64,000 bases of DNA. Origin: Methanoregulaceae archaeon (GTDB taxonomy: Bacteria > Armatimonadota > Fimbriimonadia > Fimbriimonadales > Fimbriimonadaceae). Under the pieces are notes generated by a model. The model had not been told where the DNA came from, made no database searches, and worked only from the letters and a program-made list of their open reading frames with translations. The stretch covers positions 1 to 64,000 of the forward strand of contig JADZEW010000030.1 of the NCBI GenBank assembly GCA_020850325.1, written 5' to 3'. This document shows, in pieces, positions 4,233 through 30,231 of this stretch. The position numbers were made by a program, and so were the translations under genes. The number at the start of each line of letters is the position of its first letter. Position 1 is the stretch's first letter.

Positions 4233-4248
4233 TATGACGCGCATCATA
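4233..4248 (-). promoter_or_regulatory. FNR-like operator of the CMD / NarI-like operon
   Basis: TATGAC-GCGC-ATCATA. The palindrome centre (4240.5) is exactly 41.5 bp upstream of the A of the start codon at 4199. A -10 hexamer TAAGAT occupies -12 to -7 relative to that A. This is class II geometry with the start codon as +1. Confidence 0.78.
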
Positions 4249-5162: not shown

Positions 5163-5720
5163 ATGAGCGGCACTCGAGTCGAAGCGGTCTTGTTGACGGG
5201 CGGGTCCAGCCGCCGGATGGGGATGCCTAAGGCCCACCTGATGGTCAAAGGAGTTCCCTTGGGGGCTCGCATCGCCGCCGAAATCGATCGCGCCGGTTGG
5301 CCCCTGACCGTCCTTGGTCAGGAACCGATTGACGGTTACCCTTTCCTCGCGGACACCAAAGAGTTTGCCGGGCCGCTTGCCGCGTTGCGGCAGTATCTGC
5401 CGGGTGGTGACCTGGTGTTCGTCGCTGCCTGCGATATGCCGCTTTTTCGCCGGGACGTGGTGAAGGCGCTTGTCGAGAAGCTCGACCCGGACGCCGATGC
5501 CATTCTGCCGGTGCTCGACGGCAAGCCCCAACCCTTGAGTGCGATCTATCGCAAGAAGTGCTTCTATCAGCTCGTCGCCCATCCCGAAATGGAGCGCATG
5601 ACCGATTGGGTCGCCCACCTCAAGATTCAGAAGCTCGAGGAACTGCCGTTCCCCGCCGACTGGATCACGTCGGTGAATACCCCGAACGAACTTCAGGCTC
5701 TGCTGGCCCGAGGCGAGTGA
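5163..5720 (+). CDS. mobA: Molybdenum cofactor guanylyltransferase (MobA-type)
   Basis: This 185-residue nucleotidyltransferase has the N-terminal signature LTGGSSRRMGMPKA (residues 11-24) and the metal-binding segment AACDMPLF (about 82-89). MobA transfers GMP from GTP to molybdopterin to give the bis-MGD cofactor used by both molybdoenzymes here. The length matches MobA (about 190). It is a lone plus-strand gene whose end overlaps the end of the convergent regulator gene by 28 bp. No palindromic operator was seen upstream. A related CTP:molybdopterin transferase (MocA) is the main alternative, but bis-MGD enzymes next door favour MobA. Confidence 0.85.
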   Translation: MSGTRVEAVLLTGGSSRRMGMPKAHLMVKGVPLGARIAAEIDRAGWPLTVLGQEPIDGYPFLADTKEFAGPLAALRQYLPGGDLVFVAACDMPLFRRDVVKALVEKLDPDADAILPVLDGKPQPLSAIYRKKCFYQLVAHPEMERMTDWVAHLKIQKLEELPFPADWITSVNTPNELQALLARGE

Positions 5721-6427
5721 GTCAGCAGATCTCGCAGCGCGGCCGTGTCCTTTAAGGTCAGGTGGCGATAACCGGAGTCGATCCACCCTCGCTGCTGCCA
5801 GCGGGAGGTCACCCGAATTGCCGATTCAACGGTGACGCTCGCGATTTCGGCAAGGTGCTGGCGGGTGACGGGAAGGACATTCCCGGATCGGGATTCGAGG
5901 AGATCGTGCACCCGCAGCACCGCTGTGGCGAGGCGCTGCTCCACGTCGCCGGCGAGCAACGCCGACATGAAGTCGAATCCGTGAAGCAACCGGCGACCCA
6001 TTTCCGCCAGAGCCCGCTCGCGAAAGTCGTCGTGCCCGTCGCGGAGTTCTCCCCACAGTTCCCGGGGAACTTTCAGGTACCACGAGTCGGTGATCGCGGT
6101 GGCGGTCAGCGGATAGCGCGTTCCAGCAAGCGTGGCGAGAATCCCCGCGCACGACCCCGGACCGAGAACCTCGACCGTGATCTCGCGACCTTGAACCGAC
6201 CGTCGGCTGAGACGGATGATTCCGTCCGCGACGATCGCAAAGAACCGCGAGTCCACCCCCGCGCTCCACACCGTCTCGCCCCGCGCGGCATGCTCCAGGC
6301 GGCATCGGGACACGATGTGGGCAGCGAGCCGCTGGGGAATACCGTCGCACAGGGAACAAGCCAGGAGGCTTTCCAACTTGTCAGGACGTTCTTGCCCGTT
6401 TGCCAAGGCCGCTTGCTCAGCACTCAT
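5693..6427 (-). CDS. Crp/Fnr-family transcriptional regulator
   Basis: This 244-residue protein has an N-terminal cyclic-nucleotide-binding-type effector domain (about 20-135), a dimerisation helix (about 140-165) and a C-terminal winged helix-turn-helix (about 180-230). The recognition helix reads V200-E-S-A-I-R205 and aligns with FNR VETISR. The Glu and Arg that read the GA core are kept and FNR Ser212 is replaced by Ile204. Cys24, Cys27, Cys42 and Cys93 could in principle bind an iron-sulfur cluster as in FNR, but the spacing differs. The ATG at 6427 overlaps the nnrS stop region by 11 nt, so the two are co-transcribed and coupled. It is the natural candidate reader of the TATGAY-N4-RTCATR sites, one of which heads its own operon. 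Confidence 0.87.
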   Translation of the reverse strand: MSAEQAALANGQERPDKLESLLACSLCDGIPQRLAAHIVSRCRLEHAARGETVWSAGVDSRFFAIVADGIIRLSRRSVQGREITVEVLGPGSCAGILATLAGTRYPLTATAITDSWYLKVPRELWGELRDGHDDFRERALAEMGRRLLHGFDFMSALLAGDVEQRLATAVLRVHDLLESRSGNVLPVTRQHLAEIASVTVESAIRVTSRWQQRGWIDSGYRHLTLKDTAALRDLLTHSPRASRA

Positions 6428-7781
6428 AAGCCATCTTAACCTTTCGCGTTGCCAGGATGGGAACGACCATTGCCGTCGCCCAGAGTACAAGTGCAGTAAG
6501 CTCGATGAACCCGGTGAAGCCCATCGGCATGAACGCCTCCACCCGGTAATCCGTGGCAATCTCCAACCCCACCCTTGCCGCGTTGCCCACATTCAAGAGA
6601 ATGAACACCCCCCAAAGGGGGCTGACCTTGGATTCATCCAGCCCGATCGATCGCCCCACCACGTGGATGCCGACCCCAAGGATCATCTGCGAGATGAACC
6701 CCACCGTGACCGCGTGGCGAATCGCCCCGGTATACGCGTGGGAGAACGGAGCATGCATGACCGAGAGGTGGATGGGTTCGAGGATCAACAACGCCCCGGC
6801 GACGAGCAACCATGCAAATGCCGCCCGTACGAACTTGTGAGCGCGAATCGTGAACTTTGGACGCTCGAAAATACCGAGCGAGACGACGATGCACAGCGCT
6901 CCGAGCGCGAGCAGAACGCCTCCGAGCCGGAACAGACGCGAAGCATCCGGCAAGAGGTCGGCTCCGTAGAACGCTTGCCAGCCGACGATCCGGGCGATGA
7001 GTCCCGCCCACCACAAGCCCAGTCCGGCCAGACCCCAAGCCCGGTCGGGCTCACGGAATCCGAAACAGCTGGACATCTTGACCAGAGCGACGCCGAAGAT
7101 CATCATCGGCACGAATCCGAGGAACTGCGCTTCGCGAAGCGGGGTGAACCACTCCGCCACGAAAATCACGGAGGCTTGAGCATCAGCTTGATGCGAGAAG
7201 GCGAAGACGAAAGGCTCGGCGACGGCGACCACGACCAGCCAGAACAGTGAGCTGAAGACGAATGCAGTTGGCCACGTGAGTGAGTTTCGCGTTCGATAAC
7301 GGGTCACCGAGGTGTTGATGACGAACAGGGCGACGGCCGCCAACTGTAGCAACCCCGACAGCACCCCGACCGGCAGCCACACATCTCGATCGACCGCCGT
7401 CATGGGTTCGGCCACGAACCGCAGTGCGATCCCCGCTCCCATCAGTCCGAGCGACACATAGGCCAAGCGATGGAAGAGGGCGGCTCGCGCGATCGTCGGC
7501 GCATGCTGCTGCAGCGAGAATCCCATGATGAAGAATCCGACCCAGCCGAACAGCTGCGAGTTCGCGTGGGCTAGGACGTACGGCGTCCACGCTGAAGCGG
7601 TGTAGGAGGCTTGCTGCGCGATGCCGAACAAAGCCACCGCTCCGAGGAGGCACCCGGCGGTCAGCACGGTGAGGATCCCTGCCAGAAAGAACGGGCGGTA
7701 GATCTGGGTCGCGGCCCGATCTCCTGACCGGGCCGCATCGGAGGGGAGAACGCGGAGGAGCATTCCTGACCTTGGAACCAT
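6417..7781 (-). CDS. nnrS: NnrS-family membrane protein
   Basis: This 454-residue protein has about twelve hydrophobic segments and NnrS-type motifs. These are the N-terminal YRPFFLAG, His residues in HANSQLFGWVGFFIMGF, and the C-terminal segment HAYTGAIRHAVTVGFISQMILGV. NnrS is a heme- and copper-associated protein linked to nitric-oxide stress during denitrification. The start was set at 7781 because the operator centre lies 41.5 bp upstream of it and the hexamer CATGAT (7793-7788) falls at -12 to -7. Longer in-frame starts up to 7856 would run across the operator. The regulator gene follows with an 11-nt overlap. Confidence 0.83.
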   Translation of the reverse strand: MVPRSGMLLRVLPSDAARSGDRAATQIYRPFFLAGILTVLTAGCLLGAVALFGIAQQASYTASAWTPYVLAHANSQLFGWVGFFIMGFSLQQHAPTIARAALFHRLAYVSLGLMGAGIALRFVAEPMTAVDRDVWLPVGVLSGLLQLAAVALFVINTSVTRYRTRNSLTWPTAFVFSSLFWLVVVAVAEPFVFAFSHQADAQASVIFVAEWFTPLREAQFLGFVPMMIFGVALVKMSSCFGFREPDRAWGLAGLGLWWAGLIARIVGWQAFYGADLLPDASRLFRLGGVLLALGALCIVVSLGIFERPKFTIRAHKFVRAAFAWLLVAGALLILEPIHLSVMHAPFSHAYTGAIRHAVTVGFISQMILGVGIHVVGRSIGLDESKVSPLWGVFILLNVGNAARVGLEIATDYRVEAFMPMGFTGFIELTALVLWATAMVVPILATRKVKMAYEC

Positions 7782-7814
7782 AGGTTCATCATGCGCCGTC
7801 CCCGAGAGCCGGAC

Positions 7815-7830
7815 TATGACATGCGTCATG
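7815..7830 (-). promoter_or_regulatory. FNR-like operator of nnrS-crp
   Basis: TATGAC-ATGC-GTCATG, with perfectly symmetrical ATGAC/GTCAT arms. The centre (7822.5) is 41.5 bp upstream of the ATG at 7781. Because the regulator gene is second in this operon, autoregulation is predicted. Confidence 0.78.
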
Positions 7831-7910
7831 GTTTGCCAAGAAGAATGAAGTTGCAATCCCGTTGCTGTGGGGAGGAGGTGTTGTGCCCTAGCAGGTTGGG
7901 AGATGTTTGT

Positions 7911-8073: not shown

Positions 8074-9039
8074 CTACGGCGTCATCGCGCACCGATGCTC
8101 GAACACGCACTGGCCCGGCTCAGCATGGCAGAGACCGTGCCCCAGGTACTTGGCGTAGCCGTCGCTGAAGACCGTCGCCACCAGCTCGTGGGTGCGCTGA
8201 AGTCGCCGCGCAGCAAGATAGTTCGCACCCGACGAGATGCCAACGCACAGCCCCAGCCGATCGCGCAGGTCCTTGGCCGCTTCGATCGCGTCGTCGCTGG
8301 CAATCACCTCGACGCCGGTGATCATCGGATGCAGGCCGCCCGCTCCGTCCGAAGCGATCGCGGGAATGAAGCCGTCGCCAATGCCGTAAATCGCGTGCGG
8401 CCCGGCCGGTCCGCCGCTCATCACCGCCGACTCGGCGGGTTCGACGGCCACCACGGCCGTATCAGGCCACTCATCCGTCAACGCCTGGCCAACGCCGATC
8501 AGCGTTCCGCCTGTGCCCACGCCGGCAACGAAGGCGTTGATCCGGCGTCCATCCGCCATTAGTTCGGCGCCGGTGGTGCGTCGGTGACACTCGGGATTGA
8601 GCGGATTCGAGAACTGGTCGGGATTAAACCAACCCTTGTCGTGCGCCATCCGGTCGCGGATTTCGGCGGCCTCGGCGAAACTGCCCTCGACGGAGCAGAG
8701 AATCAGATCCGCCCCCAGGTCGCGAATCCGGGCCTTGCGTTCCTCGGTCATGTTCTCGGGCATCACGATGGTCACCGGATGGCCAAGCTTGGCCCCGAAG
8801 TAGGCCATCGCGATGCCCGTATTGCCGCTGGTGGCTTCGACGACGGGCTGCCCGGGCATCAGCAGGCCGGTCCGCCGCGATTCGCTCAAGATCGTCCAAG
8901 CGACCCGGTCCTTGATGCTGCCCGTGCGATTTACGCACTCGAGCTTCACTAAGATGCCGTCGACTTCGATGAGCGGCGTATCACCGACTCCCGGATGCTT
9001 CGCAAGGTTGTCCATGGCGCTGTTGCCCGGCAGGGGCAA
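8074..9039 (-). CDS. Cysteine-synthase-family PLP enzyme with Cys/His tail
   Basis: This 321-residue fold-type II PLP enzyme has the PLP lysine in TGSIKDR (about residue 43), the substrate loop TSGNTG (about 69) and the phosphate-binding loop GVGTGGT (about 174). It should convert O-acetylserine or a related activated serine with sulfide to cysteine; cystathionine beta-synthase-like activity is possible. The last 20 residues are unusual, with the pattern GLCHAEPGQC and EHRC, and could bind a metal. The TTG at 9039 is preceded by TATACT ending 7 nt upstream, fitting a leaderless start; the ATG at 9015 is the alternative. It is a lone gene. Confidence 0.8.
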   Translation of the reverse strand: MPLPGNSAMDNLAKHPGVGDTPLIEVDGILVKLECVNRTGSIKDRVAWTILSESRRTGLLMPGQPVVEATSGNTGIAMAYFGAKLGHPVTIVMPENMTEERKARIRDLGADLILCSVEGSFAEAAEIRDRMAHDKGWFNPDQFSNPLNPECHRRTTGAELMADGRRINAFVAGVGTGGTLIGVGQALTDEWPDTAVVAVEPAESAVMSGGPAGPHAIYGIGDGFIPAIASDGAGGLHPMITGVEVIASDDAIEAAKDLRDRLGLCVGISSGANYLAARRLQRTHELVATVFSDGYAKYLGHGLCHAEPGQCVFEHRCAMTP

Positions 9040-9230
9040 GGATCACAGTATAGCCGCAGACTTCGGGACGACACCCCAGAAAAACAATGTACGAGATGGG
9101 CATAAGCAAACCACATCGTTGCTCCCGACAACGCACCATCCTCGATGCCATTACAAGTGGACTAGCCTTCGCTTGCGACCAAAAACCAGACTTCCCTGGG
9201 TCGTCGGCTAGTATTCGGTCAAATAGACTC

Positions 9231-10022
9231 TTACGTTACACTGGCACCAAACCCCAGCCATACGGGCACCGAGACAAGCAAAAATGCGCCGATCATATTT
9301 CCTATAGCGACAGGCACGATATTCCACATCATAGCTTCCATTAACGTAACATTAGCTCCCAGAAGAATACCTGTCGGAAGCACGAACATGTTCACAACAA
9401 GGTGTTCGTAGCCTAGCGTAAAGAACATTGCTATTGGGAGCCAGGTCGCCACAATCTTTGTCATTTGACTAGATGAAGCCAGCCCAACAACCGAACCTAG
9501 CGCCACCATCCAGTTGCAAAGAACGCCTTTAACAAGTGCCGTAGCCCAACCTAAACTCCCAAGTTCGGCGTAATGAACAGTCTTGGTTTCACAAACACTT
9601 ACACACTTCAGAGCCAGAGCTTCGCTCGGCTGAAATGAACCGGTCGTTGATGCAAAGGCGAATAACACTCCCGCTATCAGGCCCCCAATCAGATTGCCGC
9701 AAAGTACGAGACTGTAATTCCTAAGAACGCTTCTGCCGCTCACTCGCCTGCCCATCGCTCCATACGGCAGTATAGCGAAGTTCCCTGTGATGAGCTCCAA
9801 TCCTAAGAAGGCGATGAGTGCAAAGCCTGCTGGGAATAAGAGGCCTGAAACAAGGGCCGATTGGCCGGCGACCAGCCCCTCACCGCCCTTCCACGCAAAC
9901 AAAGTCGCGATCGCAAGCAACCCTCCTGCCAATACAGCAGTTGCAAGAAGGCTAGTTGAACTCTTCAAGCATTTCTGCTCTGCAACTAACAAAATCTGTC
10001 GGCTTATGCTCTCGCTCTTCAC
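9231..10022 (-). CDS. Formate/nitrite transporter (FNT) family channel
   Basis: This 263-residue channel protein has six membrane segments and the FNT signatures LELITGN (about 75-81), CNWMVAL (about 166-172), GYEHLVVNMF (about 201-210) and VPVAIGNMIGA (about 233-243). The lone central-pore His is in GYEH. FNT pentamers carry formate, nitrite or hydrosulfide; a nitrite role fits the neighbours. It starts with GTG one base after the stop of the SLAC1-type gene, with AAGGTG as Shine-Dalgarno, so the pair is an operon. Both genes are clearly lower in GC than the flanks, which suggests acquisition. Confidence 0.88.
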   Translation of the reverse strand: MKSESISRQILLVAEQKCLKSSTSLLATAVLAGGLLAIATLFAWKGGEGLVAGQSALVSGLLFPAGFALIAFLGLELITGNFAILPYGAMGRRVSGRSVLRNYSLVLCGNLIGGLIAGVLFAFASTTGSFQPSEALALKCVSVCETKTVHYAELGSLGWATALVKGVLCNWMVALGSVVGLASSSQMTKIVATWLPIAMFFTLGYEHLVVNMFVLPTGILLGANVTLMEAMMWNIVPVAIGNMIGAFLLVSVPVWLGFGASVT

Positions 10023-10023
10023 T

Positions 10024-11070
10024 CTAGTTCACCTTACCGATGCCCTTGAACTGACGGTGTTGCGCCAATAGATGCCTTAGCATTCCGCAACTTACAAGTA
10101 ACCATGCACTTACTGCTATGATACAAAAATATGGAGTCATGAGGGACAGCCATGCGAGCTTCTGCGTTATGCCCAGCGAATGAGAGGCGGCCGTGAACAT
10201 TCCCAAAGGGAACACTATACTCCACTGACCAACCTCGTACCCGAATGTCACGCGCCCAACACCATGTCTCCAGAACCCTAAGAGAATTAGCAGTGGAATC
10301 CAAGAAATCGCGGCGGCCCAAAGGGTCAGAGCCCCACCCTGCACAAACGGCAACAAGTAGGAGCTGGTCGTATCGAAGCCCTGCATAGCTCCGGATACTT
10401 CTGACCCCGCCAAAGTAGATATCGCTGACGCGCCCATCATTATCCAGTATGTTGGGACCAACTGCTTAGGCTCGATGGGAAGCAGAAGAAGTCGACAAAC
10501 GACTAAGAAGACTAATGAAAAATACATTACACTTCCGAGTAGAAAACATAGGATCGATATCATCAACATAAACTCTCGACCTTGTGCAAAGAGTACAGCG
10601 CCGAGAACGGCCAGAGATTGTAAGCCTACTACAAGCAGTAACCACGCTCCATTTATTGCGTCAAGCTGAAACTGCTCTTTAGGCCTGGTCATGAACGTGA
10701 ACAGGAACGAATAAACGAGGAGTGTGTAAAGAAGCGCAGCAAAATACCACAACAGTTCAGGTGCTATGGATATTCGAAATATCTTCGATAACCCACTCCC
10801 GAGCACGCTCGAGGCTGCTACGATTGTGAAGAAGCCGGGTGCTTTTAGGGGATTCTGGAAATCCTGGATGACATCCTGCCAATAACATGTCGTCCGGATG
10901 ATCATCGCTATCAAGAGAAGGGCGTAACTGATAGCTGCTACGACAAGGAGTAGACGGTCTAGAAGAGGAAAGCCGACTCTATGGGTTGCGATGGCAACAA
11001 TGCCAGTTGCCATTACAAAGGAGAATGAGGCCGGTAGGAGTCCCTTTATTGTTCGTTTCATGAGTCCCAT
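10024..11070 (-). CDS. SLAC1/TehA (TDT) family anion channel
   Basis: This 348-residue protein has about ten hydrophobic segments and the TDT-family opening (LLPASFSFVMATGIVAIATH, then a long second helix). Members include TehA, Mae1 and the sulfite exporter SSU1. They move small anions or C4-dicarboxylates through a channel gated by a Phe. I set the start at ATG 11070, with a second ATG at 11061; the longer open frame to 11397 is antisense-quality sequence inside narK. It overlaps the 3' end of the truncated narK by 13 nt and is followed at once by the FNT gene. It is probably co-transcribed from the narK promoter. Confidence 0.75.
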   Translation of the reverse strand: MGLMKRTIKGLLPASFSFVMATGIVAIATHRVGFPLLDRLLLVVAAISYALLLIAMIIRTTCYWQDVIQDFQNPLKAPGFFTIVAASSVLGSGLSKIFRISIAPELLWYFAALLYTLLVYSFLFTFMTRPKEQFQLDAINGAWLLLVVGLQSLAVLGAVLFAQGREFMLMISILCFLLGSVMYFSLVFLVVCRLLLLPIEPKQLVPTYWIMMGASAISTLAGSEVSGAMQGFDTTSSYLLPFVQGGALTLWAAAISWIPLLILLGFWRHGVGRVTFGYEVGQWSIVFPLGMFTAASHSLGITQKLAWLSLMTPYFCIIAVSAWLLVSCGMLRHLLAQHRQFKGIGKVN

Positions 11071-12047
11071 GTCTGCAAGCAGAAGTTTGAGCCAACTGAT
11101 GTGCGTATCCCCGAGTTTAGCCGGCGCACAACACGCCCGGGGGTTCTGGACGATGCCAGGCCAACTGCATCTGATGTTTGGCTCAGCATCAGATACATCG
11201 TCGCCCGCGCACCGAACTTGTCGCTCGCCCACCCGCCCAGCGCGGAGATCAGCCCGCTCGGCAGGCTGAAGATGCTCGCCATGAGACCCGCCATCGCGAG
11301 CGACATCCCGTAAACGCTGAGGTAGTACGGCACCAGCCACTGGGCCAGCGCAACGAACGCGCCGAACACGAGGAAGTAGTAGGCACCGAACCGCCAAACG
11401 CGCGCGCTACGCAGCGGTCTAAGCATCGAGACTAGGGTCTTCTGGCCCGCGTTTTCGGGTCTACGGTTCGTGGTCATGAGCGCGAAGATCGCGGTCATCA
11501 AGAGGAGGGCGCCCGCGTAGAGAAGGGGCAGCTGCCGCCAGCCTTCGGGGTTCGCGCCCCCCTGCGTAAGTCGCTGCAAGGCGGTGGGCGCGAGCAGGGT
11601 CGTGACCGCGGACCCCGCATTGCCCACGCCAAAGATGCCGAGCGCCGTGCCCTGCCGCTCCTTGGGCCAGAACACCGAGGTATAGGCGATCCCGACCGCG
11701 AACGCCGCGCCCGCCATGCCGAAGATGAGTCCACAGGCGAGGAAGTGCCAGAACTCGGTGGCGAGCGAGGTGAGCGCCACCCCGCCCGCGGCGATGAGCA
11801 TGACGGTGATGTACACCGGCTTGCCGCCGTAGCGATCGGTGAGAAGCCCGACCGGGAGTCGCATCAACGACCCCGTGAGGATCGGTGCCCCGATCAACCA
11901 CCCAAGCTGGGCCTTGTCGATCTTCAGCAGGTGAGCATCGGAGAGGAAGGCGCCGAGTACGCCGTACATCGTCCACACGGCGAAACACACCGTGAATGCC
12001 ACGGTGTTGAGAATCAGTACGCGCTTGGCAAGCCCCTGCTCCGGCAT
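11058..12047 (-). pseudogene. narK: NarK-type nitrate/nitrite MFS transporter, C-terminally truncated
   Basis: The frame encodes 329 residues. Residues 1 to about 285 are a good NarK-family MFS half and more, including the signature GIFGVGNAGSAVTTLL (about 141-156). After LSQTSD the sequence turns into non-membrane, Arg/Ser-rich residues, and the second nitrate-signature helix and last four to five membrane segments are missing. The change of frame content falls at the edge of the lower-GC insert. Its promoter is intact: the operator is centred 41.5 bp upstream of ATG 12047, and -10 TAGAAT ends 6 nt before the ATG. Transport activity is unlikely. An assembly join is an alternative explanation for the break. 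Confidence 0.8.
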
Positions 12048-12080
12048 ACGATCATTCTAAGGTGCGGAGGGTTGAGTTTA

Positions 12081-12096
12081 TATGACCGGCATCATA
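12081..12096 (-). promoter_or_regulatory. FNR-like operator of the narK promoter
   Basis: TATGAC-CGGC-ATCATA. The centre (12088.5) is 41.5 bp upstream of the narK ATG. TAGAAT occupies 12059-12054, exactly -12 to -7 if the A of the ATG is +1. No separate promoter is evident before the SLAC1 and FNT genes. Confidence 0.78.
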
Positions 12097-12119
12097 ATTG
12101 CTCGATTCTCGTGGCCGCT

Positions 12120-13391
12120 TCAGTAGTCCTTGATCGAGGATGTGTCGTCGTTCCCGATCAAGCGGGCTCCCCGTTTGAAAGTTAGGTAGTTGAAGAGCCA
12201 CTGAGTCGCGACCAGGATGCGGTTTTCAAACTCTACGAGCTGCATCAGGTGGATGAACGACCAGATCAGCCAGCCGAACCAACCCCAGACTGACCGGCCA
12301 AACACCTGGCCGACCGCGGCGTTTCGCCCGATGACGGCAAGGCTGCCGAGATCGCGATAGCGGAAGGCGCTGGGCGGCTGCCCTTGCTCGCGCTGCCGAA
12401 CGACGGAGGCCGTGTGGCGGCCCATCTGCATGGCGACCTGAGCTACGCCGGGCAGGGGCTCCGGGAACGCGGCGACATCTCCGATCACGAAGACATCCGG
12501 GTGGCCCGGAACGTGGAGATCGCGCGTGACCACCAGTCGCCCGACGCGGTCCGTTTCGGCACCCAGCGCTTCCGCGACGATTCGCCCCAACGCGCTCGCT
12601 TCGACCCCCGCCGCCCAAAACAGGTTGTCCGCCTCGATCTCGCGGGTGCCGCCTTCGTGCACCAGTGTGCATCGACCCTCCTCCATTTCGATCACGCGGT
12701 GCTGGCACAGCACGGTGACGCCCAGCCGTTCGAGGCTGTGCCCCGCGCGTCGGGAGAGCTCCGGCGGAAAGGCCGGGAGGATCCGTTCGCCCGCCTCCAC
12801 CAGATACACACTCGCTTGGGCCGGATCGATCGCCCGGTACTCGCCGCGGAGGGTGCGCCGCGTGAGTTCTCCCACCGCTCCGGCCAACTCCACGCCCGTT
12901 GGCCCTGCGCCGACGATCAAAAAGGTCAGAGCTCGGCGCTGCGCCTCCGGGTCCGGGCATGCCTCGGCGCGTTCGAAAGCGGACAGCACCTTACGCCGAA
13001 TCTGCAGGCCGTGTTCGATGGTTTTCAGCCCCGGCGCGAGTTCTTCCCACTCGTCCCGGCCGAAGTAGGAGTGTCGAACTCCGGTGGCGATGACGAGCGT
13101 GTCGTAAGGGAGGTCACCGGCGTCGGTCCGCACGTGCTTTTGCATCGGATCGAGCCCGATCGCCTCCGCCATGAGGACTCTCACGTTCCGGGTCCGCCGG
13201 AACACCGACCGGATGGGTGACGAGATATCTCCCGGCGACAATCCTCCAGTCGCGACTTGGTAAAGCAAGGGCTGGAAGAGGTGGAAGTTGCGCCGATCGA
13301 GGAGCGTGACGTCGGCCCCCTGGCGGGCGAACGCCCGGGCCGCGGCGAGTCCGCCGAAACCCCCGCCCACGATGACCACCCGCCTCGCCAT
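12120..13391 (-). CDS. ndh: Type II NADH:quinone oxidoreductase
   Basis: This 423-residue flavoprotein has an N-terminal FAD-binding Rossmann motif VIVGGGFGGLAAA (about 5-17), a second NAD-binding motif IVGAGPTGVELAG (about 157-169) and the FAD segment VFVIGDVA (about 306-313). A C-terminal amphipathic region rich in Trp and Phe (about 370-405) fits membrane attachment. It oxidises NADH and reduces quinone without proton pumping and could supply quinol for NrfH or the NarI-like subunit. The start at 13391 is supported by TATACC at -12 to -7 with no Shine-Dalgarno, fitting a leaderless mRNA; the in-frame codons upstream lie in repeat sequence. No operator of the nitrate type was seen. Confidence 0.9.
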   Translation of the reverse strand: MARRVVIVGGGFGGLAAARAFARQGADVTLLDRRNFHLFQPLLYQVATGGLSPGDISSPIRSVFRRTRNVRVLMAEAIGLDPMQKHVRTDAGDLPYDTLVIATGVRHSYFGRDEWEELAPGLKTIEHGLQIRRKVLSAFERAEACPDPEAQRRALTFLIVGAGPTGVELAGAVGELTRRTLRGEYRAIDPAQASVYLVEAGERILPAFPPELSRRAGHSLERLGVTVLCQHRVIEMEEGRCTLVHEGGTREIEADNLFWAAGVEASALGRIVAEALGAETDRVGRLVVTRDLHVPGHPDVFVIGDVAAFPEPLPGVAQVAMQMGRHTASVVRQREQGQPPSAFRYRDLGSLAVIGRNAAVGQVFGRSVWGWFGWLIWSFIHLMQLVEFENRILVATQWLFNYLTFKRGARLIGNDDTSSIKDY

Positions 13392-20287: not shown

Positions 20288-20303
20288 TATGACGAAGATC
20301 ATA
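20288..20303 (+). promoter_or_regulatory. FNR-like operator of nrfHA
   Basis: TATGAC-GAAG-ATCATA. The centre (20295.5) is 54.5 bp upstream of the nrfH ATG, the same distance as for the NarG-like gene. A start at +41.5 would be near 20337, giving a 13-nt leader with AGGA. The hexamer at the -10 position (GAAGCT) is weak, fitting dependence on an activator. Confidence 0.75.
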
Positions 20304-26672: not shown

Positions 26673-28793
26673 ATGATCCGTCGCACCTTTGCGTCTGCCG
26701 TCTTGCTGTCGTGCGCCTTGTTGGCAAGTGCGCAACCGACCCCCAAGATGGGACACAGCGCTCATGGTTCGGCGTTCGACACCGGCTTGCGTAGCCGCCC
26801 GTGGAAGATGCAGGGTCTGGGTCCGGCCCCGTTCAAGATCACGACCAAGAACCCGGAGGTGCAGCAGTGGTTCAACCAGGGCAATGCGCTCATGCACAAC
26901 TTCTGGTTCGAGGAGGCGGAGCGATCGTTCCGCTGGTGCCTGAAGCTCGAACCCGAGAATCCGATGGTGTACTGGGGGCTCGCCTACTCCGGGTTCAACT
27001 GGTTCGTTTCGTACAATCCTGGGCCGGGGAAGTTCGACCGCTATCGCGAGTTCTTGAAGAAGGCCGTGCAGTTCAAGCACAACGCTTCGCCCCGAGAACG
27101 GATGTACATCGAGACGTGGGATCGCGCCTTCGCGAAGGGTAGCACCGTTCCCGACGAGGTGATTGCCCGGGGCATGCAGGAGATCGTGCTGCAGTATCCC
27201 GACGACGTTGAAGCCAAGGCTTTGCTGGCGTTCTACAACATCGGCAAAGGCAGCGCGTTTGCCAATCAGCTCATCGTCGATGAGATCTTGCGGCAGAACC
27301 CCAACCATCCCGGTGCCCACCACGCCAGCATCCACAACTGGGACTCTTCCAATCCAGAACAAGCCCTCAGGAGCTGCGCGGGGTATGCGAAGTCCTCTCC
27401 CGGATCGGGCCACGCGCTGCACATGCCCGGCCACGTCTACACCAAGGTCGGAAAGTGGCACGAAGCGGCATGGGCGATGGACGCGGCAACCCGTTTCGAG
27501 CTCAAGTACATGAACGAGCGGCTCGCCCTGCCCTTTGAGACCTGGAACTTCGCCCACAACCGCAACTACCTCAGCTACATCCATGAGCAGCTCGGCATGG
27601 AGAAGGCGGCGTTGACCGGCGCCCGCGACTTGCTGAGGGCACCCAAGGACCCAGACTACAACCCCGAAGAGGCCGACTACTATTGGGAAGGAATGACCGC
27701 CCTGACGCGGTGCCTGATGAAGTTCGAACGATGGGAACTCATCGTCAAGCCCAGCGAGATTCCGTGGGGCAAATCGGGGATGGCAAAGGACATGCGCGTC
27801 GGGTGCGAAGCGATCGCTTACGCCGCGCTTGGCGATGCTGCCGCCGCCAACGAAAGGCTTCAGTCAATCAAGGATGATGCCAAGAAGCAGGCCAAGGACA
27901 AGCCGATCAGCGCCTTCGACAAGATGCTCATTTCCGAGATCGAAGGTCGGCTGCTCATCGCCCAGAACGACTTTGACGGTGGCATCAAAGCCTTACGGGA
28001 AGCAGCGAAGCTCGAGGATGATCGCTCGTACGGTGGCGATCCGCCCGGTACCCCCTATACGCTGTGGCGAGTGATCGGCGATGCCTACCGCAAGCATGGC
28101 GACCACAAACTCGCGATCGACGCCTATGAGCGCGCCCTGAAGAAGGAGCCGATGGATGGCTTCGTGTTGAGCGGCCTCGCCGCCAGTTCGAAGGCGGCGG
28201 GAGAACTGGAGCAAGCCAAGACCTACGCGGCTCAGTTCGCGAGCGTCTGGTCGAGCCCGGACCCCGGCCTGCCTTGGACGGAGCTGGTCGCCTCGCTGAA
28301 CTTGGATGCAAAGCCTCCTCGAAACGCCCGAGCCTACGTCCCCGCCAAGCTCGATTCCATGGGCCCCAGCAACTGGCAGCCCTTCGCAGCTCCCGCCTTG
28401 GACGTGATAGACGCCGACGGCAAGCGGGTCTCGCTCGCGGATTACCGCGGCAAGAACGTCGTGCTTGTGTTCTATCTGAGCGACCAATGTGCCCACTGCA
28501 TGGAGCAACTCAGGGCCATCAGCGCGAAGAAGGATGACTTCGGCAAAGCCAACGCGGTGGTGCTCGCGGTGTGTAACGCAGTCGAGAACACCGCACCGAT
28601 GGAAGGGGTCCGGCTGCTGCGCGACAAAGACCACGTCAACGCCCGGCGCTATGCGTCGTACGACGACTTCGAGGACATGGAGCTCCACTCGACCATCTTG
28701 ATCGACGGCGAGGGGCGGGTTCGATGGAAGCGAACCGGCGGCGATCCATTCTCGAAGGTCGACTTCCTGCTGTCGGAACTCAAGAAGTTCTGA
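26673..28793 (+). CDS. Secreted TPR protein with C-terminal thioredoxin-fold domain
   Basis: This 706-residue protein has a signal peptide (about 1-20, ending ASAQ), many tetratricopeptide-like repeats (about 60-530) and a C-terminal AhpC/Redoxin-type domain (about 565-700) with the redox motif CAHC at about 608-611. A role in extracytoplasmic thiol chemistry or cytochrome assembly is plausible but not shown. The -10 TAGTAT (26662-26667) ends 5 nt before the ATG, fitting a leaderless mRNA. It is divergent from UBact-prcB. Its 3' end overlaps the end of dop by 14 bp (convergent). Confidence 0.75.
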   Translation: MIRRTFASAVLLSCALLASAQPTPKMGHSAHGSAFDTGLRSRPWKMQGLGPAPFKITTKNPEVQQWFNQGNALMHNFWFEEAERSFRWCLKLEPENPMVYWGLAYSGFNWFVSYNPGPGKFDRYREFLKKAVQFKHNASPRERMYIETWDRAFAKGSTVPDEVIARGMQEIVLQYPDDVEAKALLAFYNIGKGSAFANQLIVDEILRQNPNHPGAHHASIHNWDSSNPEQALRSCAGYAKSSPGSGHALHMPGHVYTKVGKWHEAAWAMDAATRFELKYMNERLALPFETWNFAHNRNYLSYIHEQLGMEKAALTGARDLLRAPKDPDYNPEEADYYWEGMTALTRCLMKFERWELIVKPSEIPWGKSGMAKDMRVGCEAIAYAALGDAAAANERLQSIKDDAKKQAKDKPISAFDKMLISEIEGRLLIAQNDFDGGIKALREAAKLEDDRSYGGDPPGTPYTLWRVIGDAYRKHGDHKLAIDAYERALKKEPMDGFVLSGLAASSKAAGELEQAKTYAAQFASVWSSPDPGLPWTELVASLNLDAKPPRNARAYVPAKLDSMGPSNWQPFAAPALDVIDADGKRVSLADYRGKNVVLVFYLSDQCAHCMEQLRAISAKKDDFGKANAVVLAVCNAVENTAPMEGVRLLRDKDHVNARRYASYDDFEDMELHSTILIDGEGRVRWKRTGGDPFSKVDFLLSELKKF

Positions 28794-30231
28794 TCGCTCG
28801 GATGAAGTCGTCGACGTCAAGTTCGGGGGACACGTGAGAGTAGTCGCGCTCGGGGTCTAGCGTGACTTCCCGGAGCTCACCGTCGAGGCGGAAGACGAGC
28901 GTGCCCCAACTCGCCCTCTCCAACTCGGGATATCGAGTGGCCAGGCCACGCGCCCGGGCGCGGGTGTCGCGCGGAGCGGGGATGTCGAGGTCCGTAGGGA
29001 TAGCATCCTTGACCATGCCGGCATCGCGTAAAGCGAAGTAGAGCCCTTCGTTGGGGTCGACGTTGTGATACTCCAGGTCGTAGGCGAGTAGTTCGCTCGA
29101 TCCCCACCGCAGCCCAGTTTCATCGACCACCGTTTGGAGCAGTTGGCGCTTGGCGATCCAATCCACTCGGCCCGCGATGCGGTCGGGTCGGTCGGGGAGC
29201 GATTCGAGGATCTCACGGACATCGACGATGAGTCGCCCGAACTCGGCATCACCCGCGAGGTGGCGCTCGCCCGCGTCGAGGTAGGCGTTCAGCACCTCGT
29301 AGGCGGTCGTCATGATCCGATCTTCGACCGCGATCTCGAAGCGTCGCGTCATATCGCGGCTAACAGCTTGGATCGCCCGCACCGGATCGGCAAGCGCGAT
29401 GTTCGGTACGGCATCGACCGCCATCAGCGCAAGCCCGAGCCTAATCAGCCCCACCTTGCGCCAAGTACACGAGGGCATCATGTTCGCGTCGCCGGCGATG
29501 ACGTGTAGCCGCACCCAATCGGCCGGGTTCGAGTGGGGTTCGTCGCGAGTGTTGAAAATCGGCCGCCGGTACAGCGTATCGACCGATGCTCGCTCGCTGA
29601 AGAAGTCCGCCCGCTGAGAGATTTGATAGTCGCAGGGCCGGCCGGATTCGGCAACCGCCTTGCCCGCCCCGCACACGATGATCCGGGCGACGAGGAGCGG
29701 CGTCAGGGCAGCGTACAGCCGTTCGAATCCCCAATCGCGGGGCACCAAGTAGCTCTCGTGAAAGCCGTAGCTGGCGCCGTGATAGTCGGTGTTGTTCTTG
29801 TAAATCGTGGTTTGCCGCCCGGTTGATTCGGCGTAAGCGCGGGCAGCTTGGAGAACGATCGCCTCGCCCGCGCGGTCGTGAGCGAGCAGGTCGTCGAGCG
29901 ATCGGCACTCCGGGGTGGCGTACTCAGGGTGGCCGTGATCGTTGTAGAACCTGGCTCCGTTGGCGAGAATCTGGTCGGCGCGAACCTCCTCGCTGGGTCC
30001 GTAATGCTTGCCCTCATCGAAGGCGGCATCGACCGGATCAACCTCAAGCCGATCAGCGCGGAAGCCGCGCAGATCTTGGCGGGGTGACTCGACCCGGTAA
30101 TCCCAAATGACGCGGCACTCGCCCGGAAGACTCCGGACGAGCGCCTGCGCGTCGTCGATCTGGGTGTTCGCCCCCCGCCCCTCGACGGAGCAACCATACT
30201 CCGTCTCAAGGCCGGTGACGAACGAGATCAT
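28780..30231 (-). CDS. dop: Dop, Pup/UBact deamidase-depupylase
   Basis: This 483-residue carboxylate-amine-ligase-like protein starts GLETEYG (about 7-13), with the ATP/Mg glutamates. It carries the Dop-type insertion around WDYRVESPRQDLRGF (about 43-57), then NGARFYNDHGHPEYATPEC, KNNTDYHGASYG and NTRDEPHSNPADWVRLHVI. The WDY..ESP..D.RGF segment separates Dop from the ligase PafA. It would remove UBact from substrates; with a Glu-ended UBact the deamidase step is not needed. It follows the Gly-rich lipoprotein gene by an ATGA overlap. PafA is not in the window. Confidence 0.88.
   Translation of the reverse strand: MISFVTGLETEYGCSVEGRGANTQIDDAQALVRSLPGECRVIWDYRVESPRQDLRGFRADRLEVDPVDAAFDEGKHYGPSEEVRADQILANGARFYNDHGHPEYATPECRSLDDLLAHDRAGEAIVLQAARAYAESTGRQTTIYKNNTDYHGASYGFHESYLVPRDWGFERLYAALTPLLVARIIVCGAGKAVAESGRPCDYQISQRADFFSERASVDTLYRRPIFNTRDEPHSNPADWVRLHVIAGDANMMPSCTWRKVGLIRLGLALMAVDAVPNIALADPVRAIQAVSRDMTRRFEIAVEDRIMTTAYEVLNAYLDAGERHLAGDAEFGRLIVDVREILESLPDRPDRIAGRVDWIAKRQLLQTVVDETGLRWGSSELLAYDLEYHNVDPNEGLYFALRDAGMVKDAIPTDLDIPAPRDTRARARGLATRYPELERASWGTLVFRLDGELREVTLDPERDYSHVSPELDVDDFIRAIRTS

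Follow-up and report, generated by a model that had tools for sequence, protein, structure and literature searches.

The window, i.e., the whole stretch of 64,000 nucleotides analyzed here, is the beginning (1-64000) of the 125-kb contig 30; the genome, 3.5 Mb in 41 contigs, is 98% complete. Its nitrate genes encode NrfA, a type II molybdoenzyme similar to NarG, and a NasC-like reductase that shows no obvious export signal. The part of interest reads, on the minus strand, NDH2, a narK1 remnant, SLAC1, FNT, a cysK/M-like gene, an NnrS-like gene and a Crp-like gene. The features are the following (the sister being a genome of the same genus):

13427-12120, minus strand: NDH2 gene
12081..12096, minus strand: operator TATGA-N6-TCATA of the Crp/Fnr type, kept in the sister and in most narK1 orthologs
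12054..12059, minus strand: -10-like TAGAAT, a matter of consensus resemblance only, kept in the sister (alignment with locus L031)
11194..12047, minus strand: narK1 remnant, codons 1-285, open and ungapped in the alignment with the sister; the whole ORF spans 12047-11058
11058..11193, minus strand: foreign tail of the narK1 frame, about 45 codons, overlapping the SLAC1 start; no similarity to narK1 past 11194
9016..11193, minus strand: replacement block, about 2.18 kb, GC 0.505, in place of positions 5780-7892 of sister locus L031 (2.1 kb, GC 0.61)
10024..11061 (alternative start 11070), minus strand: SLAC1/TehA gene (PF03595), 345 aa
9231..10022, minus strand: FNT gene (PF01226), NirC-alpha-like, 263 aa
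9186..9199, minus strand: weak terminator-like hairpin with a T-run, 32 nt past the FNT stop, folding no better than shuffles
8074..9015 (start at about 9015), minus strand: cysK/M-like gene next to the block; the sequence before it has been replaced as far as roughly the start codon
7856-6417, minus strand: NnrS-like gene
6427-5693, minus strand: Crp-like gene

At ~11190 the GC content drops from ~0.65 to ~0.49, to be back up at ~9000, and the GC3 values of SLAC1 (0.53) and FNT (0.52) lie far from the 0.74-0.88 of the surrounding nitrate-cluster genes. A sequence-only reading had placed a SLAC1/TehA-type gene and then an FNT gene directly downstream of narK in the same direction, and profile searches bear this out (PF03595, E 6e-42; PF01226, E 8e-55). 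The GTG start of FNT at 10022 lies 1 nt from the SLAC1 stop at 10024. The 13-nt overlap between narK1 and SLAC1 claimed in that reading applies if SLAC1 starts at ATG 11070 but not if it starts at ATG 11061, in which case stop and start overlap as ATGA.

Two further genes of the window deserve mention. Positions 219-2657 encode an 812-aa molybdoenzyme that resembles the type II DMSO reductase/NarG family and falls under every family cut-off; a similar gene shares a cluster with narK1/narK2 in several relatives. Its assignment as NapA was rejected, as type II molybdoenzymes fit better, and a narG family search returned no true NarG in the source genome. The membrane protein encoded at 2777-3907 matches nothing in Pfam or NCBIfam; in most relatives its counterpart adjoins NasC, NnrS or the NarG-like gene, i.e., it is an unnamed part of the nitrate cluster.

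The exchanged block and the narK1 remnant

The corresponding locus of the sister (G001, locus L031), about 85-87% identical in nucleotides on both flanks of the block, is ordered NDH2, narK1 (496 aa), narK2 (438 aa), cysK/M (cysM), NnrS and Crp. The two align without gaps through narK1 codon 285 and the alignment picks up again at the cysK/M start, so that 2.1 kb (narK1 from codon ~286 and the entire narK2) have been exchanged for ~2.2 kb of low-GC DNA. No narK2 was found elsewhere in the source genome (G000), nor any second copy of narK, SLAC1 or FNT, there being one SLAC1 and one FNT only. As the narK1-narK2 neighborhood, NnrS included, is widespread among the relatives examined, we read it as ancestral. 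On sequence comparison, two predicted MFS carriers are thus exchanged for two proteins of channel families. The earlier proposal of an acquired low-GC channel pair that broke narK1 agrees with the aligned flanks, the GC3 contrast and the intact sister gene. It had one MFS carrier swapped for two channels: the carrier-to-channel swap stands, but NarK1 and NarK2 have both been lost, and the comparison with relatives carrying intact narK that it had called for gives a larger replaced block (~11193 to ~9016) that includes all of narK2.

The arrangement of the sister recalls the narK1-narK2 operons, and the fused NarK, of Paracoccus denitrificans, with which it shares the gene order and the position in a nitrate cluster, and in which NarK1 works as a nitrate/proton symporter and NarK2 as a nitrate/nitrite antiporter (PMC5217062). 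Unlike in both of these, NarK1 in the window ends early and has no equivalent of Arg305, NarK2 is missing altogether, and their place is taken by SLAC1 and FNT.

The remnant is 90% identical in amino acids to the intact sister gene. As had been noticed from the letters, its family sequence ends where the GC drops: the match to the sister and to Pfam MFS_1 extends no further than residue ~285-290 (~11194), i.e., to about residue 285 of ~496, leaving helices ~9-12 missing. Moreover, residue 268, which aligns with R303 of NarU and R305 of Escherichia coli NarK, is Ser (TCC) in the remnant vs Arg (CGC) in the sister, and this Arg is invariant in the sister and 10 outgroups; in E. coli NarK, R305 is essential, and R305K abolishes transport both in vivo and in vitro (PMC4432589). 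The remnant does not qualify as a complete NarK (NNP) carrier with both substrate arginines and, owing to the lost helices and the Arg305-to-Ser change, is predicted to be a dead carrier that cannot transport. Its dN/dS against the sister is 0.11 (0.05, 0.09 and 0.15 in successive thirds toward the break; 0.02-0.08 in the neighbors), a low value that implies either that the exchange is recent relative to the split or that the frame is under selection; the open frame would fit recency or use as a translated leader.

The retained operator and expression of the pair

The claim that the operator and -10 of narK1 are intact proved correct: TATGA-N6-TCATA at 12081-12096 and TAGAAT next to it are both kept in the sister. 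The operator, centered 41.5 nt upstream of the narK1 ATG, recurs at the same distance (-49 to -52) in most narK1 orthologs, and its palindromic 5-6-5 architecture, its spacing from the start and its conservation in orthologs identify it as a Crp/Fnr-type site. With at most one mismatch there are six copies in the window vs 0.21 expected (at 2704, 4233, 7815, 12081, 16192 and 20288), which precede the NarG-like gene, NnrS, narK1 and NasC, with one more at 4233 and that at 20288 ahead of NrfA. Together they would define a nitrate/nitrite regulon of the family, for which the Crp-like gene at 5693-6427 is a candidate regulator.

No operator copy lies between 7830 and 12081, hence none inside the insert, and a scan of the minus strand over 8950-12200, weak as such scans are, found no sigma-70-like promoter; the separate strong promoter before the TehA gene that would have told against use of the narK1 promoter was thus not seen. 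The acquired genes follow the kept operator in the overlapping order that had been described. The ATGA overlap, the 1-nt gap between SLAC1 and FNT and the lack of any internal promoter or operator in these searches make co-transcription of the remnant, SLAC1 and FNT likely. If the promoter is of class II Crp/Fnr type, an operator centered 41.5 nt before the ATG would place the transcript start at the ATG itself (12045-12096 in the window, and in the orthologs), so the mRNAs are probably leaderless, judging from the operator spacing in most orthologs. Since the stretches at the narK1 join and after FNT fold no better than shuffles, we claim neither a terminator nor a recombination site there.

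SLAC1 and FNT proteins and their spread

Most annotations of bacterial SLAC1/TehA homologues name them tellurite or dicarboxylate transporters. The SLAC1 protein of the window belongs to PF03595 (144.3 bits vs a curated cut-off of 27.9) and scores well below the cut-off of the NCBIfam tellurite-resistance/dicarboxylate transporter family TIGR00816 (73.2 vs 237.25 bits); it does not classify as TehA itself, and its substrate is therefore not readable from the family. Its AlphaFold2 model (pLDDT 82, pTM 0.84) matches SLAC1/TehA or SLAH3 structures in all of the top 24 PDB hits (TM(query) 0.62-0.73), and the significant structure matches are of SLAC1 and TehA type only; the alignment profile searched against PDB sequences gave no match. 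It shares profile and fold with plant SLAC1/SLAH3, family members that conduct nitrate and chloride (PMC3509319, PMC10645844), and with Haemophilus TehA, but differs from the solved members in being only ~16% identical, bacterial and part of a nitrate-reduction regulon. The nearest relatives found are 39-41% identical and its branch in the tree is long, and with such divergence its substrate need not equal theirs.

The FNT protein is a member of PF01226 (186.3 bits vs 34.6) that falls far under the NCBIfam NirC equivalog NF008595 (44.9 vs 293 bits). The enteric NirC named in that model is of the NirC-beta type. At FocA positions 79, 90, 172, 175, 202 and 212 the protein has F, I, N, V, F and V, i.e., the residues of the NirC-alpha subgroup (F/Y at FocA L79, V/L/I at F90, N172, V175, F202 and V at A212; PMC5525234, Table 4 and text). 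Its relatives at 40-50% identity often lie in nirB operons (Nitrotoga, Paenibacillus, Niallia), and it shares PF01226 and the pore residues with the NirC-alpha transporters beside nirB (PMC5525234); unlike these, it has SLAC1 as its partner downstream of a broken narK1, and the surrounding cluster includes the periplasmic-type nitrite reductase NrfA. Another FNT gene lies beside cyanase (cynS) on a Geobacillus plasmid, with transposases on its flanks (L053:4842-6186).

SLAC1 and FNT genes are also neighbors (same direction, 0.4-1.5 kb) in Planctomycetota, Acidobacteria, Polyangia (a Polyangiaceae genome) and Bacteroidota, so that the pair is a recurrent association. The regulator-SLAC1-FNT loci compared (L057, L070, L073, L095, L099, L104 and L120) differ from the window in that their SLAC1 is only 33-35% identical to that of the window, that most are preceded by a two-component system and that several have small genes between SLAC1 and FNT, where the window has 1 nt. 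A two-component system followed by SLAC1 and FNT is seen at L057:1777-6789, L070:1830-6774, L073:1851-6700, L099:1206-6828 and L120:1188-6816 (Planctomycetota, Acidobacteria, Bacteroidota), and in the Bacteroidota versions two ~165-aa proteins and a cyclic-nucleotide-binding protein are encoded between the two.

Among 113 genomes of the class, SLAC1 (counted where PF03595 scored above its cut-off) occurs in 10, narK2 in 35 and NasC in 44. NasC is present in every one of the ten genomes with SLAC1 (p 4e-5) and narK2 in none of them, with species treated as independent; within the NasC-bearing genomes, SLAC1 is found in 0 of 27 with narK2 and in 10 of 17 without it (p 7.8e-6, kinship ignored). 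At least one of narK1, narK2 and SLAC1 is present in 43 of the 44, SLAC1 alone in seven. Species being non-independent, these p values are weakened, and the stronger argument comes from contrasts within genera and from separate places in the tree: both states occur within five genera (g1, G001/G000; g16, G016/G083; g21, G021/G086; g19, G079/G068, G073, G076; g15, G088/G015), and the SLAC1 genes of the class occupy at least four tree positions, which indicates several independent acquisitions. Nine of the ten lie in nitrate clusters, beside NasC, NnrS, Crp or narK1. In G086 an intact narK1 is followed by SLAC1 and then NnrS, so that SLAC1 takes the very slot of narK2; the operator directly precedes SLAC1 in G013 and G076, and in G025 it lies in an intergenic region shared with narK1. 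The G086 arrangement is present on two near-identical 3035-bp contigs (L048 and L049), perhaps from two strains in one bin. On these comparative grounds the passage from narK2 to SLAC1 is a recurrent non-orthologous replacement, and it suggests that channels of the SLAC1 type can substitute for the customary nitrate/nitrite carriers in bacteria; an FNT partner was found in the window only. The single event at this locus that had seemed the simplest reading thus holds as regards the exchange, but SLAC1-type genes have replaced narK2 repeatedly in the family.

Whether the pair arrived as a unit is a related question. SLAC1 and FNT could have come separately, or SLAC1 could have replaced narK2 first, as in G086, where no FNT intervenes, with FNT and the narK1 break following later; in the tree the SLAC1 of the window clusters loosely with three further SLAC1 genes from its family, while Nitrotoga and Planctomycetota have the best FNT relatives. 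Against this, the two genes have the same GC3 (0.52-0.53), lie 1 nt apart and recur as neighbors in other phyla, and we hold a stepwise arrival to be somewhat unlikely. Donor searches gave, in plasmids, at best only 35% (SLAC1) and 48% (FNT) identity by protein and no match by DNA, nothing in viral contigs, about 50% for FNT in named genomes (Nitrotoga and others) and 38% for SLAC1 in 50 FNT-matching named genomes, so that no donor emerged from them.

A putative channel-based route for nitrate and nitrite

We consider it probable, from the gene content and comparisons above, that a horizontally acquired SLAC1-FNT pair replaced the 3' part of narK1 and the whole of narK2 in a narK1-narK2-cysM operon, uses the narK1 promoter and takes over nitrate/nitrite transport. 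The pair would be expressed from the kept promoter, whose operator appears to belong to the nitrate/nitrite regulon, and the 5' part of narK1 would persist as a leader whose translation keeps the mRNA occupied by ribosomes and may pass these on to SLAC1 through the stop/start overlap. If NarK1 and NarK2 of the sister act as described in PMC5217062, they would bring nitrate in and exchange nitrate for nitrite. In the window, a SLAC1-type channel or carrier may bring nitrate in, or swap nitrate for nitrite, and the NirC-type FNT may move nitrite out to periplasmic NrfA. As passive import opposes the negative-inside membrane potential, SLAC1 would need proton coupling or a very low internal nitrate concentration; it may be proton-coupled or serve mainly for nitrite exit, nitrite export being the easier role.

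An exchange of the same extent could also have left a pair that moves other anions (C4-dicarboxylates, formate, bicarbonate, sulfite or tellurite), narK1-narK2 being simply lost from a permissive operon. TDT/TehA-type proteins do include dicarboxylate carriers, FNT proteins move formate, nitrite or hydrosulfide, the closest solved FNT relative is LCIA, a low-CO2 inducible protein, and the TIGR00816 score of SLAC1 leaves room for this. However, SLAC1 is limited to genomes with NasC, never occurs together with narK2 and is found in nitrate clusters behind the same operator, and the FNT residues fit the nitrite subgroup, so we judge transport of other anions in place of nitrate and nitrite unlikely. 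An assembly or binning artefact, i.e., a contig join of two organisms or strains, might be suspected from the number of contigs and the abrupt GC change at both block ends, but is highly improbable given that each join is internal to a 125-kb contig whose gene order agrees with the sister to its left and right, that inserted and lost lengths are similar, that the joins have no long repeats (chance-like pairs only), that the disabling substitution precedes the break by 17 codons and that an independent genus (G086) has SLAC1 in the same slot.

More widely, bacterial SLAC1-type proteins may be a further class of nitrate/nitrite transporters, interchangeable with NarK2 and acquired many times, sometimes with an FNT partner, here with a dead narK1 kept as translated leader; on this wider proposal we are evenly divided. 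We found no description of bacterial SLAC1 proteins as nitrate transporters in the open-licence papers searched. The strict linkage of SLAC1 with NasC, the shared operator and the exclusion of narK2 across the class provide a concrete, testable substrate assignment, one that would tie bacterial SLAC1/TehA proteins to the nitrate-conducting SLAC1/SLAH channels of plants. The locus offers a clean natural experiment, in which operon and operator are the same and carriers have been swapped for channel-family proteins, and it makes one ask how a cytoplasmic nitrate reductase could be supplied through an anion channel. Elsewhere in the window, positions 28780-30231 hold a Pup ligase (PafA) gene, and pupylation is probable in the source bacterium.
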